A stretch of 64,000 nucleotides of DNA, taken from positions 1,552,001 to 1,616,000 of the forward strand of contig NZ_CP129970.2 in assembly GCF_030503895.2 (NCBI RefSeq), in the 5' to 3' direction. The position numbers and the translations under genes are program-made. The notes beneath the pieces are model-generated. The model ran no database searches. It was not told the origin of the DNA and saw only the letters and a list, made by a program, of their open reading frames with translations. This DNA comes from Marivirga arenosa (GTDB taxonomy: Bacteria; Bacteroidota; Bacteroidia; Cytophagales; Cyclobacteriaceae). Shown here in pieces: positions 1 to 6,039 of this stretch; the first letter of the stretch is position 1, and the number at the start of each line of letters is the position of its first letter.

Positions 1-1166
1 TAGAGAATCAAAGAAGCTGTCATATTACCTATACAAATCCTATAGTTCACGAAATATTAGAGGATGGCTTTGAAAGATCACCGATGTTTAATGGCAGAAT
101 ACAAGGTTTAGGTCCTAGATATTGTCCATCTATAGAAGATAAGATTAATAGATTTGCAGAAAGAAATAGACATCAAATATTTGTTGAGCCTGAAGGATGG
201 GATACCGTTGAAGTTTATGTGAACGGGTTTTCAACTTCATTACCAGAAGATATTCAGTATAAGGCCATCAGAGAAATTGAAGGATTCAAGAATGTAAAAA
301 TGTTCAGACCTGGCTATGCCATTGAATATGACTTCTTTCCTCCAACGCAATTAAAGACAACACTAGAAACTAAACTAGTAGGTAATCTGTATTTTGCAGG
401 TCAAATAAACGGTACCACTGGTTATGAAGAAGCAGCTTGCCAAGGCTTAATGGCAGGTATAAATGCTCATTTGAAAATTAATGAGAAAGAAGAATTCATT
501 CTTAATAGATCAGAAGCATATATTGGTGTTCTTATAGATGACTTAATCAATAAAGGGACGGAAGAGCCTTATAGAATGTTTACCTCCAGAGCAGAACACA
601 GAATCTTATTAAGGCAAGATAATGCAGACGTTAGATTAACTCCTTTAGGTCATAAGATTGGATTAGCTTCAGATGAACGATTAAAACAGGTTGAAGAAAA
701 ACAGTCAAGAATTGATGCGTTTATTAAAGGATTGAAAACTCATAAAGTAAAGCCTAATACTGTTAATGATAAACTTACTGAAATTAAGTCTTCTCCTATT
801 AAGGAGAAAACAAATGTCTATAGTATCTTAAAACGTCCTGAGATTTCATTTAAGCAATTACAGTTTATTGAGCAAGATTTAAATGATATGATCAGTAGTT
901 ATACTAAAGAAGTGGTAGAAGCATCTGAGATAAACATTAAATATGAAAGTTATATAGAAAAAGAGAATCAGCTAATTGAAAAAATGAGAAATCTTGAAGA
1001 TTTAAAGATTAAAGATTCTTTAGACTTCAATGCTATCCCTGCATTATCATCTGAGGCAAAAGAAAAGTTAAGAAAGGTAAGACCTCAAACATTAGGACAG
1101 GCATCAAGAATCAGTGGAGTAACTCCAGCTGATATTTCAATTTTAATGGTTTATTTAGGTAGATAA
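1..1166 (+). CDS. mnmG: MnmG (GidA), tRNA uridine 5-carboxymethylaminomethyl modification enzyme, 5' end missing
   Basis: FAD-dependent partner of MnmE that installs the carboxymethylaminomethyl group on U34 of tRNAs. The open frame is already running at base 3, so the N-terminal FAD-binding part lies before the window; about 387 residues remain of a usual 620. Visible are the conserved FNGRIQGLGPRYCPSIEDK stretch, the GQINGTTGYEEAA segment, the second GidA signature (YIGVLIDDL, then GTEEPYRMFTSRAEHR), and the C-terminal helical domain that contacts MnmE. The stop TAA shares one base with the ATG of the next gene (TAATG), which suggests translational coupling. In many bacteria mnmG lies beside the replication origin, which is relevant to the gap at 3.9-4.2 kb. 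Confidence 0.97.
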   Translation, partial: ENQRSCHITYTNPIVHEILEDGFERSPMFNGRIQGLGPRYCPSIEDKINRFAERNRHQIFVEPEGWDTVEVYVNGFSTSLPEDIQYKAIREIEGFKNVKMFRPGYAIEYDFFPPTQLKTTLETKLVGNLYFAGQINGTTGYEEAACQGLMAGINAHLKINEKEEFILNRSEAYIGVLIDDLINKGTEEPYRMFTSRAEHRILLRQDNADVRLTPLGHKIGLASDERLKQVEEKQSRIDAFIKGLKTHKVKPNTVNDKLTEIKSSPIKEKTNVYSILKRPEISFKQLQFIEQDLNDMISSYTKEVVEASEINIKYESYIEKENQLIEKMRNLEDLKIKDSLDFNAIPALSSEAKEKLRKVRPQTLGQASRISGVTPADISILMVYLGR

Positions 1167-2053
1167 TGAATTACGAAAATTTAACAGATTGCCCTGTTTG
1201 TGGTGGATCAAATTTAAAAAATCATAAAGTAGTTAAAGATCATTCAGTTAGTCAGGAATCATTCAATATAATGATGTGTGATAATTGTCATTTTCAATTC
1301 ACAAACCCAAGACCTGATGAGGAGAATATAGGAAAGTATTATAATTCTGAAGAATATATATCACACTCAGACAAGGCTAATTCCCCTATTAACTTTATAT
1401 ATAAGATTGCAAGAAAGTATGCATTATCTTCAAAAAGGAAATTAATTAATTCTGTTGCTAATCATAAAAAAGGTAGACTTTTAGATTATGGATGCGGAAC
1501 CGGATACTTTCTTGAAAATATGAAAAGTAATGGCTGGAAAGTATATGGTATTGAACCCAATGAAAAAGCCCGATCTATTGCAACAGAAAAAGCAAAGGTT
1601 AAAGAAAATATTGAACAGCTCAATTTAAAAAATAAGAAATTTGATGTTATTACGTTATGGCATGTATTGGAACACATACATGATCTTAATGATATCATCA
1701 AACAATTAAAATCAATATTAAAAGAAAAAGGCAAATTAGTAATAGCAGTTCCTAATATTGATAGTTATGAGCAATCATTTTATGAAGAGCATTGGGCTGC
1801 ATATGATGTACCAAGACATCTCTACCATTTTAGCCAGGATACCATGAACACATTAATGCTCAAACATGGTTTAAAAGTAAAGAAGGTCTATCCAATGAAA
1901 TTAGATGCATATTATATAAGTTTATTAAGTAGTAAATATAAATTTCAAAAGAATAAATTCATAAAATCTATCTTAACAGGTTATAAATCAAATAGTTACG
2001 CTAATAAAAATCAAAATAATTATTCAAGTCTTATATATATAATCAAAAAATGA
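1166..2053 (+). CDS. Class I SAM-dependent methyltransferase with N-terminal zinc-ribbon motif
   Basis: The protein has 295 residues. The N-terminus carries two CxxC pairs (C9/C12 and C38/C41) of the kind found in the zinc-binding head of Methyltransf_23-type enzymes. A SAM-binding motif DYGCGTGYF lies near residues 107-115, followed by an acidic strand end (YGIEPN) and the LWHVLEHIHD post-motif. The substrate is unknown; relatives methylate quinones, sugars or small molecules. It overlaps mnmG by one base and the next gene by four (ATGA), so the three are probably one transcript. Confidence 0.85.
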   Translation: MNYENLTDCPVCGGSNLKNHKVVKDHSVSQESFNIMMCDNCHFQFTNPRPDEENIGKYYNSEEYISHSDKANSPINFIYKIARKYALSSKRKLINSVANHKKGRLLDYGCGTGYFLENMKSNGWKVYGIEPNEKARSIATEKAKVKENIEQLNLKNKKFDVITLWHVLEHIHDLNDIIKQLKSILKEKGKLVIAVPNIDSYEQSFYEEHWAAYDVPRHLYHFSQDTMNTLMLKHGLKVKKVYPMKLDAYYISLLSSKYKFQKNKFIKSILTGYKSNSYANKNQNNYSSLIYIIKK

Positions 2054-3876
2054 TTAAAAGATATATCTCCCTACTTTTTAATATTCTAATCATATATGCA
2101 TGTGCTACAGTTCAAAGTCCTACAGGCGGAGAAAAAGATGAGAAAGCACCAATCTTATACGAATCAAATCCAGCTGATCAATCCATTAACTTTAAGGGAA
2201 CTGAGATTAGATTATTTTTTAATGAATGGATGAAATTAGAACAAATACAAAATGAATTAATAATCACACCCAGAGAAGAAATTGATTATGAAGCCAATTT
2301 GAAAAAACAAGAATTAATAATTCAATTAAAAAAACCTTTAAAAGATTCAACCACTTACACTTTTAATTTCAGAGAGGCATTAAAGGATATAACTGAAGGA
2401 AATTTATGGGAGAACCCAGTTATAGCATTTAGCACTGGTCCATTCTTAGATTCTTTAGAATTTAAGGGTCAAGTAGAAAATGTATTTACTCACCAAGCTC
2501 AGAAAGATTTTTTAGTAGGTCTGTATGATGCAAATTATGATTCAGCAGATTTAAGACAAGGTAAGCCAGTATATTTTACAACTACTGATGAAAATGGTAA
2601 TTATCGTTTTAGAAATTTAAAAGCAGGTGATTATCGACTTTATACTTTCAGAGATAGTAATAATGATTTAATAAATAATTCGCAATCTGAAGCATTTGGA
2701 TTTCATAATGAAATAATTTCCCTATATGATAGCATAGGCAATATTAAGCTGAGCACCTACAAGAGAAATGAGGACACACTTAAACTAAAAAAATATAGCC
2801 CAGTTGGTAAAGATTTTATTATTCAATATAATAAAGGAATAAAAGATTACTCTCTAATCAATCCTATTGATTCTAGTCAATATATATATGCAAATGATGT
2901 AGAAAAATCAAAATACATAAAAGTCTACAGAGAGAATTTTCCACAGTTAGAATATGAGACAGATTCTGTTTTATTAATAAGTCATGTTATTGATTCTACA
3001 TATAATAATAGAACTGATAGTGTATACGTTAAATTCAGAGAAAGTAGAGTAACAAATGATTCAATTAAAATACTTACAAAACCCGAAGGTAAAATAACAT
3101 CTGGTATTCAAGAATTCGAGCTTTCAACCACTAAACCAATATTTGACATTAATTATGATTCAATTCAAATCAGATATGATAGTATTCCAGTATACAGAAT
3201 TGATAATAAAAACGTAAAGATATCTGCAAACAAAAAAAATATAAGCATTTTAACAAAACTTGATAAATCCCAAGTTGAAGCTACTATCGATAGTATTACA
3301 GCTTATTTATCAACGCTCAATACTGATACTACCACAAATGAAAATGATAGTGTAAGCAATGAAACAGATACATTATCAAAAAACCTAAGTGAAAACAAGC
3401 AATTATATAACTCAAATAATACATCCAACTCAAAGAAAAGTAATTTAAATCTATATATAGGACAGGCTGCTTTTATTGGAATAGAAAAGGATAGCAGTAA
3501 AAGCTCTTCTACAAAAATAGAATTCAAAGAAGCTGAAGAATATGGAATTATAAAGGGCAAAGTAATCGGAGCTGAAGTTCCTTTTGTTGTTGAATTACTT
3601 GATGAAGAATTCAATGTGTTAGACAGCATTAGCAATCAGGAAGAATATACATTTCAATATGTAGAACCTGGTGATTATAAACTTAGGTTATTAAAGGATG
3701 AAAATAATAATCAAAAGTGGGATGCTGGTAATCCATTCACATTAAAAGAGAGTGAAAAATACATCTTTTTAAACGAATTAATTACGGTCAAAGCCAATTG
3801 GGAAGTTATAGACAAAAACTTTGATTTGAGTGTGGAAAACGAAGTGGATAATAGTGTAAAAGAAGAGGACTTATAA
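2050..3876 (+). CDS. Ig-like domain (Big_5/SbsA type) lipoprotein
   Basis: The 608-residue protein begins with a hydrophobic leader ending in a lipobox-like IIYACA, so it is probably a lipoprotein. Residues about 30-130 (KAPILYESNPADQS to VIAFSTGPF) match the Big_5/SbsA Ig-like fold seen in many Bacteroidota surface lipoproteins. A prealbumin-like segment follows at about 135-215 (ENGNYRFRNLKAGDYRLYTF), and a similar one lies near the C-terminus (VEPGDYKLRLLKDENNN). The middle is low-complexity, rich in Asn, Asp, Ser and Thr. No enzymatic motif is visible; a structural or envelope role is inferred. The ATG overlaps the previous stop. Confidence 0.8.
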   Translation: MIKRYISLLFNILIIYACATVQSPTGGEKDEKAPILYESNPADQSINFKGTEIRLFFNEWMKLEQIQNELIITPREEIDYEANLKKQELIIQLKKPLKDSTTYTFNFREALKDITEGNLWENPVIAFSTGPFLDSLEFKGQVENVFTHQAQKDFLVGLYDANYDSADLRQGKPVYFTTTDENGNYRFRNLKAGDYRLYTFRDSNNDLINNSQSEAFGFHNEIISLYDSIGNIKLSTYKRNEDTLKLKKYSPVGKDFIIQYNKGIKDYSLINPIDSSQYIYANDVEKSKYIKVYRENFPQLEYETDSVLLISHVIDSTYNNRTDSVYVKFRESRVTNDSIKILTKPEGKITSGIQEFELSTTKPIFDINYDSIQIRYDSIPVYRIDNKNVKISANKKNISILTKLDKSQVEATIDSITAYLSTLNTDTTTNENDSVSNETDTLSKNLSENKQLYNSNNTSNSKKSNLNLYIGQAAFIGIEKDSSKSSSTKIEFKEAEEYGIIKGKVIGAEVPFVVELLDEEFNVLDSISNQEEYTFQYVEPGDYKLRLLKDENNNQKWDAGNPFTLKESEKYIFLNELITVKANWEVIDKNFDLSVENEVDNSVKEEDL

Positions 3877-4202
3877 ACATTTATAAACACTGATAAGCAA
3901 TTAGAGATAGAAAGTGAATAAGTGAATAGTATAAGTGTAAAAAAGTTAGATCTATCTACACCTTCATCCACAAAATCTATATACACAGAAGTTATTCAAA
4001 ACTTATAAACAAAAAATCTAAAATATGTTAATTCACAGATTTTCAGAAAATTAAAAGTGGATAAGCATATTAATTATCTACATTTAATATACAGAGGACA
4101 GAAGAAAGAAATAAATGAATAAATTATCCACATATCAACAGGACTAACAATAGATAATAGTTTATATATATTTAAATAATATAATATTATGAGTGTGGAG
4201 AA
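3844..4202. other. Candidate replication origin: DnaA-box-like cluster with AT-rich stretch
   Basis: This gap has no gene. It holds one perfect DnaA box, TTATCCACA at 4124-4132, and several one-mismatch copies: 3844-3852 (minus, inside the preceding gene's end), 3964-3972 (TCATCCACA), 4056-4064 (minus) and 4194-4202 (minus, TTCTCCACA). TTATAAACA occurs at 3871, 3881 and 4003, and weaker matches near 3913, 3992 and 4029. Bases 4142-4190 are almost pure A/T and could unwind. Proximity to mnmG fits an origin in many bacteria. That this is oriC is inference; flanking genes on both sides run in the same direction, which is not the usual divergent pattern. Confidence 0.5.
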
Positions 4203-4230
4203 AACTAAAAGTGTATTCTAAAAAATTGAA

Positions 4231-6039
4231 ATGAGATATATCATTTTTACATATTTCTTAATTGCAACAACTATAAGCTTTGCCCAATCAAACCAAGAAA
4301 TAAGATTGGCAGATGCTTATTATAAAGACGGAGAATACGAAAAGGCAATATCTATTTATAGACAGCTGGCGGAGTCTCCGCAAAACATTGCTTTTATCCA
4401 CAAAAATTATCTAGAACTTTTATACGCAAAACAATACAATAAAGAAGCTGAAGATTATCTGAAATCTATTAATAAGATTTATCCAAATAACATCAGTTAT
4501 CAAGTCGATTTTGTGGATTACTATATTACCGTTAATGACAGCGCAAAAGCAGAAAAATATTATGATAAAATTGAAACCAATGTTCTTGAAAATTTAGCCA
4601 ACCTTAGATCAGCTGCTCAATTTTTTATTAACAAACAACATAGAGAATATGCAGAAAGACTGTATTTAGCAGCCAGATCAATAATGAGGGATCCTAATGC
4701 ATTTGCCATTCAATTAGCGACACTCTACCGCTATACGAGTCAAAAAGATAAAATGGTAAACGAATACCTAAAGTATGCGCTAGAAAGACCTAATAATATA
4801 CGCTATGTGAAGAATATGCTGCAGCTCTCATTGACAGAAGATGAGGAGCTACAAGCTTTTGTGGAAAAGATTATGGATAAGCTGCAAAATTCAAATGAAA
4901 AGGATATGTATGCAGATCTATTAATCTGGGCCAATTTACAATTGGAAAATTTTTATGCTGCTTTTATTCAGGCTCGGGCAATTGATAAGCGAAACCAACT
5001 TCAGGGTGAAAATAGTTTAGAAATTGGAACTCTTGCTTTTGAAAATGGAGAGTATGAAGTTGCTGAAATGATTTTTTCTTATGTAGTGGATAACTATCCA
5101 GATTCGAGAAATTATATAAAAGCAAAACAGATGGTTATTAAAGCTCAGGAAATAAAAATAAAAAATCAATTTCCTATTGATACCACCGCAATTCGAGAAT
5201 TAGTTTATTCTTATGATAATCTCATTAAGAATATCGGACTTTCACATTATACTTTAGAAGCTTATAGACAAAAGGCATTGCTGCATGCATTTTATCTAGA
5301 AGAATTTGACACCGCTATTAATATTCTTCAAAACATAATTAATTATCCAAATGCTGATCAAGATATCATTGCAACTTCAAAACTAAACCTAGGAGATATA
5401 TTTGTAATTACAGAACAGCCATGGGAATCTGTATTGCTGTATTACCAGGTAGAAAAAAGTCATAAAAATGAAGATTTGGGTGAAAATGCAAAATTGAAAA
5501 ATGCTAAACTTTCATTTTACAAAGGAGAGTTCAAATTAGCCCAAGAACATCTAGATATTTTGAAAAATGCTACTAGAAGAGAGATAGCAAACGATGCTAT
5601 GGACTTAAGCATCTTAATAAAAAACAATACTATTCTAGATTCTACGCAAAAGGCGCTTCGCGCCTATGCTGATGTAGATTTGATGCTGTATCAAAATAAA
5701 TATCAACGAGCCCAACAAACTTTGGATAGTCTGATTATTGAATATCAAGAACATCCAATTTTGGATGAGTTGCTTTGGCTTAAGGCAAAAAGAAATAAAG
5801 ATATTGGCCTTTATGATGAAGCCATTGATTTGTTATATACCATAGTCAATGAAATGCCCTATGATATTTTAACAGATGATGCGCTTTTTGAAATGGCAGT
5901 AATTCATGAAGAATTACTTCAAAATAATGAAAAAGCGAAAGAATTGTATCAAATTCTATTGCGCGATTATCCAGGGAGCATTTTTGTAGCAGAAGCTAGA
6001 AAACGATTTCGAAATTTAAGAGGTGATTTTGTTAATTAA
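4231..6039 (+). CDS. Tetratricopeptide repeat protein, secreted or periplasmic
   Basis: The 602-residue protein starts with a signal peptide (MRYIIFTYFLIATTISFAQS). Helical repeats follow: ADAYYKDGEYEKAISIYRQL near residue 27, IGTLAFENGEYEVAEMIF near 267, and several toward the C-terminus (YDEAIDLLYTIVNEMP, NEKAKELYQILLRDYPGS). No catalytic motif is seen, so a scaffold or assembly role in the envelope is inferred. The terminal repeats with a Tyr-Pro-Gly ending resemble YbgF/BamD-type TPRs. The gene sits directly after the candidate origin region. Confidence 0.8.
   Translation: MRYIIFTYFLIATTISFAQSNQEIRLADAYYKDGEYEKAISIYRQLAESPQNIAFIHKNYLELLYAKQYNKEAEDYLKSINKIYPNNISYQVDFVDYYITVNDSAKAEKYYDKIETNVLENLANLRSAAQFFINKQHREYAERLYLAARSIMRDPNAFAIQLATLYRYTSQKDKMVNEYLKYALERPNNIRYVKNMLQLSLTEDEELQAFVEKIMDKLQNSNEKDMYADLLIWANLQLENFYAAFIQARAIDKRNQLQGENSLEIGTLAFENGEYEVAEMIFSYVVDNYPDSRNYIKAKQMVIKAQEIKIKNQFPIDTTAIRELVYSYDNLIKNIGLSHYTLEAYRQKALLHAFYLEEFDTAINILQNIINYPNADQDIIATSKLNLGDIFVITEQPWESVLLYYQVEKSHKNEDLGENAKLKNAKLSFYKGEFKLAQEHLDILKNATRREIANDAMDLSILIKNNTILDSTQKALRAYADVDLMLYQNKYQRAQQTLDSLIIEYQEHPILDELLWLKAKRNKDIGLYDEAIDLLYTIVNEMPYDILTDDALFEMAVIHEELLQNNEKAKELYQILLRDYPGSIFVAEARKRFRNLRGDFVN

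Follow-up and report, generated by a model that had tools for sequence, protein, structure and literature searches.

A probable chromosomal replication origin near mnmG in Marivirga arenosa and a candidate distant DnaA-box element in its family

Chromosomal origins that lie far from dnaA are reported to be common in the Bacteroidetes (PMC4755523), and the oriC given there for Prevotella intermedia is a cluster of boxes at a skew transition, again far from dnaA. Ori-Finder has placed oriC beside mnmG in the flavobacterial genomes of Mariniflexile litorale (PMC11278836) and Algorimicrobium KMM 8389 (PMC12843772), in both cases with GC-skew support; in the M. litorale account the position of dnaA is at odds with the skew plot, and the oriC and ter labels of the figure legend are reversed relative to the text. 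An oriC far from dnaA and beside mnmG is already known in Bacteroidota. For the unwinding step, the published BUS rule describes a box, a spacer and at least three trios, written (.A.){3,}, with the distance from box to trios peaking at 10-13 (PMC8287927). Away from the origin itself, DnaA boxes are reported to accumulate near oriC in E. coli (PMC12371093), where datA and the DARS elements are non-coding box groups at conserved distances from oriC (PMC4585315).

The DNA analysed here, referred to as the window, is a whole stretch of 64 kb at 1,552,001-1,616,000 of the single contig of 3,942,954 bases that makes up the chromosome of Marivirga arenosa. A gene-free gap near mnmG (window 3877-4230, genome 1,555,877-1,556,230) is, with a probability of roughly 95%, the oriC of this 3.94-Mb chromosome. 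The initial annotation had offered the same interpretation, which is now supported by a strand-corrected skew switch, the top box density and conservation in 74 of 88 relatives. As in P. intermedia, a box cluster coincides with a skew transition far from dnaA, although that is a different bacterium of the phylum and the likeness covers boxes, skew and dnaA distance (PMC4755523). The position next to mnmG and the GC-skew support are shared with M. litorale and KMM 8389; those reports concern single flavobacterial genomes (PMC11278836, PMC12843772), whereas the address described here was followed in 88 relatives of another order and has a TPR-repeat gene as its marker.

The layout of the locus agrees for the most part with what had first been described (Table 1). 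The neighbouring mnmG is confirmed by Pfam and lies on the upstream side, its 3' end at 1166 being 2.7 kb from the gap, and transcription does run in the same direction on both sides, as seen from the ORF list. The interval originally called gene-free is so from 3877 to 4230, but its first 33 bases belong to the 3' end of the ORF at 2050-3876. Searches of the 64-kb window for tRNAs and, at the gathering threshold, for Rfam families gave no matches. A TIGR00362 search located dnaA at 2,895,494, 1.34 Mb from the gap; the encoded DnaA has the C-terminal signature GGRDHSTVIHA, presumably its box-reading motif.

Table 1. Features of the proposed origin and its flanking genes, in window coordinates.
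Feature	Position	Strand	Evidence
mnmG/gidA, C-terminal part; start outside window	1..1166	+	Pfam GIDA 1.8e-63, SAM_GIDA_C, GIDA_C_1st; ORF list
Big_5 (bacterial Ig-like) domain gene; DnaA-box-like sites in 3' end	2050..3876	+	Pfam Big_5 5.3e-15
DnaA box TTTTCCACA (1 mismatch), within 3' end of upstream gene	3831..3839	-	box kept in 7/9 genus rows
DnaA box TTATCCACT (1 mismatch), within upstream gene	3843..3851	-	box scan
Degenerate DnaA box TTATAAACA (2 mismatches), overlapping upstream stop codon	3871..3879	+	TTATAAACA/TTATACACA in 8/9 genus rows
Degenerate box-like TTATAAACA	3881..3889	+	weak conservation in genus
DnaA box TCATCCACA	3964..3972	+	TAATCCACA in 6/8 genus relatives
Degenerate DnaA box TTATAAACA	4003..4011	+	TTATTAACA, TTATACACA, TTATTCACA or TTATGCACA in 8 genus relatives
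DnaA box TTATCCACT	4056..4064	-	more degenerate in most genus relatives
DnaA box TTATCTACA	4074..4082	+	more degenerate in most genus relatives
Perfect DnaA box TTATCCACA, first of putative unwinding module	4124..4132	+	TTATCCACA/TTATCAACA in 7/9 genus rows, TTTTCAACA in 2
Second tandem box core TATCAACA, abutting first	4133..4140	+	core pattern, genus alignment
G/C-richer spacer GGAC, boxes to trios	4141..4144	+	sequence
Three candidate DnaA-trios TAA-CAA-TAG	4145..4153	+	fit to BUS rule (.A.){3,}; TAACAATA in 7/9 genus rows
Putative DNA-unwinding element	4150..4190	.	least stable 40-mer of window and of 1,174,635 sampled 40-mers
Inverted DnaA box TTCTCCACA, far-side end of A/T-rich region	4194..4202	-	box scan
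TPR-repeat gene flanking proposed oriC; synteny marker in relatives	4231..6039	+	Pfam TPR_6 1.7e-15

All the box matches first listed for the interval 3844-4202 are present, namely a perfect TTATCCACA at 4124-4132, four one-mismatch boxes on both strands (3964 and 4074 on the plus strand, 4056 and 4194 on the minus strand) and three copies of TTATAAACA at 3871, 3881 and 4003, the sole three in the window. Further one-mismatch boxes lie on the minus strand at 3843-3851, one base before that interval, and at 3831, just upstream. The number of TTATAAACA copies in the window is not beyond chance (39 of 100 shuffles reach three), but all three are found here, and the copy at 4003 looks like a real degenerate box because box variants occur in all eight genus relatives. 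An inverted box stands at most 100 nt before the TPR-gene match in 44 of the 88 relatives. Within the TPR gene itself, toward its 5' end, are a perfect box at 4394-4402 and one-mismatch boxes at 4479-4487 and 4512-4520, the array thus extending into coding DNA.

Allowing up to one mismatch, the window holds 45 boxes against 21.6 expected, a number reached in none of 100 shuffles. The base-by-base sample of 1.182 Mb, about 30% of the genome, yielded 427 such boxes, and its densest 360 bp, with six of them, are this gap; the next separate cluster has four. Two of the sampled stretches (L157 and L158) were chosen for box clusters already seen there. The gap is the top cluster of the sample, and boxes are kept at this place in most of the relatives described below.

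Between the strongest boxes and the TPR gene, the order of elements follows that of the BUS of B. subtilis and others, in which tandem boxes, a short spacer and at least three NAN trios are followed by A/T-rich DNA (PMC8287927). Searching for a box with at most two mismatches, a spacer of 0-16 bp and at least three NAN trios returned TTATCCACA-12 bp-TAA CAA TAG, and this distance of 12 bp falls within the reported peak of 10-13 (PMC8287927). The module, known here from its sequence, differs from the published ones in having three strict NAN trios only and TATCAACA as its second box (PMC8287927). The core pattern WATCMACA-N4-TAAYAATA has a single mismatch-free match in the whole genome, at the gap. 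The A/T stretch described at the outset (4142-4190) was confirmed, 44 of its 49 bases being A or T, and the least stable of the 1,174,635 sampled 40-mers lies within it, at 4150/4151. In the nine-row alignment of the genus, TTATCMACA-TATCMACA-N4-TAACAATA is kept in seven rows and is looser in the other two; in those seven the A/T stretch is nearly invariant, while the flanks drift.

Outside the genus, the module as coded is found in a minority of relatives, and box clustering is the robust signal. A coded test for box, trios and A/T-rich DNA was passed by only 28 of 88 relatives (shuffles 4/1760), and a stricter tandem-box test by 34 of 93 (shuffles 3/930). A 28-base module pattern with a three-base gap matched 16 of 89 genomes, with no matches for the reversed control; it was dropped as a count because it missed our own genome, in which the gap is four bases.

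The replichore switch was located with a two-breakpoint likelihood that includes gene-strand terms, using 28,112 four-fold-degenerate sites. The best origin breakpoint is at 1.564 Mb, and the points of the 1-kb grid within 3 lnL of it are 1.556 and 1.559-1.567 Mb; the peak is therefore 8 kb from the site, whose own grid point is 2.8 lnL lower; the points at 1.557 and 1.558 Mb fall below the peak by more than 3. On the coarse grid the strand-corrected change point gained 96 lnL. The uncorrected four-fold skew per 20-kb sample is noisy and ambiguous and changes sign near 1.75 Mb, a switch that was discarded after a strand-specific third-position bias had been found: G-C skew in plus and minus genes is -0.154 and 0.011 in the left replichore and 0.054 and 0.184 in the right. 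Composition at third codon positions depends on gene orientation, and this misplaced the switch in the raw skew. The skew test proposed in the initial annotation therefore puts the switch at 1.556-1.567 Mb in the strand-corrected data, and at about 1.75 Mb in the raw skew.

The same analysis was applied to two relatives. In G044, of the same family, the switch falls between a block ending at 835 kb and one starting at 840 kb (lnL gain 88.7), and the orthologous TPR gene at 836.4-838.2 kb is inside this interval. In G004, of the same genus, the switch is less sharp than in G044: the best position is 1.32-1.34 Mb (lnL gain 22.3), 1.28-1.31 Mb is only 0.2-0.5 lnL lower, and the TPR gene is at 1.291-1.293 Mb. 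The second breakpoint in our own genome falls between 3.42 and 3.5 Mb, in DNA outside the sample. The best match to an ad hoc dif-like pattern is at 3,513,799-3,513,824 (two mismatches), at a distance of 13.8 kb from the point opposite the gap (the antipode, 3,527,607); the control for this pattern is weak, with three matches at up to three mismatches in the whole genome against three for the reversed control, and as a mark of the terminus the site is no more than suggestive. In the three 20-kb bins at 1.50-1.56 Mb, 72-83% is plus-strand, and this DNA is therefore mostly transcribed toward the site, head-on to the presumed fork.

These positions bear on the alternative that the gap titrates DnaA or is regulated by it, controlling DnaA or the TPR promoter, and that the true origin is elsewhere on the chromosome. 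Boxes do run on into the TPR gene (4394, perfect; 4479; 4512), and a second box cluster at 1,222,765 indicates that clusters need not be origins. The replichore switch, however, is at or near the TPR locus in three genomes, the 12 best breakpoints on the coarse grid include none near 1.22 Mb, and the fine profile, which covers 1.42-1.89 Mb only, is already 48 lnL worse at 1.42 Mb. The module for unwinding and the least stable DNA of the sample are also found in the gap, and we consider this explanation very improbable. Turning to dnaA, an origin adjoining that gene (2,895,494) would match an arrangement common in other phyla, but here dnaA is 1.34 Mb off and, by the skew, well within the right replichore. 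Given that an oriC far from dnaA is described as common in Bacteroidetes (PMC4755523), an origin at dnaA can be put aside as extremely improbable.

The oriC reading was followed further through the TPR protein, which was matched in 115 of 146 genomes, our own included, some of the matches being weak or partial. The upstream 500 bp were taken from 88 of the 114 relatives with a match; L085, where the contig ends at the gene, was excluded, and L063-L065 are also outside this count. At least three boxes were found in 74 of the 88 (8/8 in the genus, 46/46 in the family and 20/34 in the order), compared with 3 of 1760 dinucleotide shuffles, with a mean of 6.0 boxes in real and 0.2 in shuffled DNA; in 500-bp stretches lying another 1 kb upstream the average is 0.3 boxes (84 loci, of which one was later excluded as misplaced). 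Against these figures, the idea that the gap is an AT-rich promoter region whose boxes arose by chance, for which the composition of the sampled stretches (about 31-37% GC) and a TTATAAACA count not above shuffles might speak, is scarcely credible.

At the TPR gene, the number of boxes stays below three in 14 of the 34 order-level relatives (L115, L127-L130, L137-L139, L142-L144, L146, L152 and L153), and 13 of these have none or one; the address is therefore not order-wide, and the oriC of these genomes is probably at another place than the TPR gene. Among the loci outside the count, L063, from an uncultured Persicobacter with a protein of 43% identity, has 13 boxes and a module sequence identical to that of L102 (G057, from our own family), and L064 and L065 have no boxes upstream. 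The scan of genome contigs yielded four loci only. One order-level relative has 23 boxes with at most one mismatch in about 700 bp (L207, G205:C127), perhaps an origin or a box array.

If the gap is the origin, DnaA would be recruited by the seven boxes with at most one mismatch, and several weaker ones, at 3831-4202. The strongest pair, TTATCCACA with the abutting TATCAACA (4124-4140), would direct DnaA to the A/T-rich side, where it may extend across the four-base spacer onto the trio strand TAACAATAG; the duplex at 4150-4190 would then be stretched open and the helicase loaded there. Two forks would depart and meet near 3.5 Mb, at the dif-like site. This order of DnaA binding, unwinding and helicase loading at the gap is predicted from the arrangement of the motifs. 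With an address of this kind, the position of oriC in a bacterial family would be narrowed down to a few hundred bases, the flanking TPR marker gene could locate it in draft genomes, and marker-frequency growth estimates and the construction of minichromosomes would become practical. It would also provide an unwinding module open to experiment, in a phylum whose published origins, among those found, were predictions.

Aside from the origin itself, a second arrangement of boxes, termed the satellite, was observed outside the window at 1,222,765-1,222,870 (L157:2765-2870), 333 kb from the proposed oriC. It reads TTATCCACA-N11-TTATCCACA-N1-TTATCCACA-N58-TGTGGACAA and sits between convergent genes, beside a gene that, from reading its sequence, we take to encode a ClC-type channel. 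Its geometry was defined as a box, a second box at +20 and an inverted box between +96 and +99, none with more than one mismatch. It was looked for in the 700 bp that follow the ClC gene, at homologues from the genus and family that had been selected regardless of boxes (L197-L206 and L229-L255). The family loci are the best 30 places, 90 of 118 genomes having been matched, and L242 was excluded for its 62 bp of flank. Among these best ClC matches, 27 of the 36 flanks read have the geometry, comprising 10/10 in the genus, where our own genome and a same-species genome are included, and 17/26 in the family; L230 is a flank without it. It occurred in none of 35 5' flanks of ClC genes and in none of 7000 mononucleotide shuffles. 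The inverted box is found at +97/98. The additional box at +30 is shared by 8 of the 10 genus genomes, and the family for the most part lacks it.

Alignment of 18 elements revealed a common spacer, ATAA-N4-CTGAT-N-ATCAG-N-TA-N-TTA, with 20 columns above 0.6 bit, which none of 500 shuffles reach. A word resembling the IHF-site consensus (at most one mismatch) occurs in 11 of the 18 spacers against a null of 13.6%, and in 10 of the 11 it is at +48/49. Kinship inflates the satellite counts, because the loci are the best ClC matches; the sequence between the boxes has drifted, however, which speaks against recent descent as the only cause.

A search with the three-box pattern, in which loci were chosen by their boxes, returned one locus each from 22 of 390 order genomes. 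The geometry is present at 19 of these loci, 18 of them behind the same ClC gene, and L221 has it without that gene. The loci from other families (L207, L227 and L228) are without the geometry. A pattern that places the inverted box exactly at +98 was found in 2 of 296 phylum genomes, both of the same family, and one of these loci (L257) has the geometry with at most one mismatch per box; this search undercounts, because it missed our own genome, where the inverted box is at +97. In eight genomes for which it was computed, the distance from satellite to oriC is 146-333 kb; read off the coordinates, it is about 68 kb in G064, and G008 and G024 have 419 kb and 550 kb, on either side. The ClC genes of G020 and G038, at 2.5 Mb and about 207 kb from oriC, are both without the satellite element.

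The satellite is likely to be a real DnaA-binding element. To our knowledge, remote control of initiation is otherwise described only for datA and DARS, in E. coli and related bacteria, and for the DnaA-box clusters of Bacillus; in the open-licence literature, as far as it was covered, no remote DnaA element was found for this phylum. The satellite resembles datA, DARS1 and DARS2 of E. coli in its non-coding boxes, their conserved spacing, a conserved spacer that may be partly IHF-like and its location on the oriC chromosome, but its distance and side vary among relatives, both of which are reported as conserved in E. coli (PMC4585315). The likeness is one of box layout, and the odds that the satellite is an analogue of datA or DARS are about even. 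They are likewise about even for an oriC served by a dedicated, family-level satellite, mostly behind the ClC-type gene and some 70-550 kb away, that would set the supply or nucleotide state of DnaA. If true, a Bacteroidota family would control initiation from a distance, and the satellite makes distant DnaA regulation directly testable in the phylum.

Perfect boxes are also somewhat concentrated toward the proposed oriC. After merging of clusters, 18 of 42 places lie within 400 kb of it, compared with 10 of 49 for a reversed-word control (Fisher p 0.025), and the concentration is not significant at 200 or 600 kb. Two perfect DnaA boxes only two bases apart are found at 1,699,369-1,699,388 (L158), just downstream of the end of an ORF that, judged by eye, resembles mutS.
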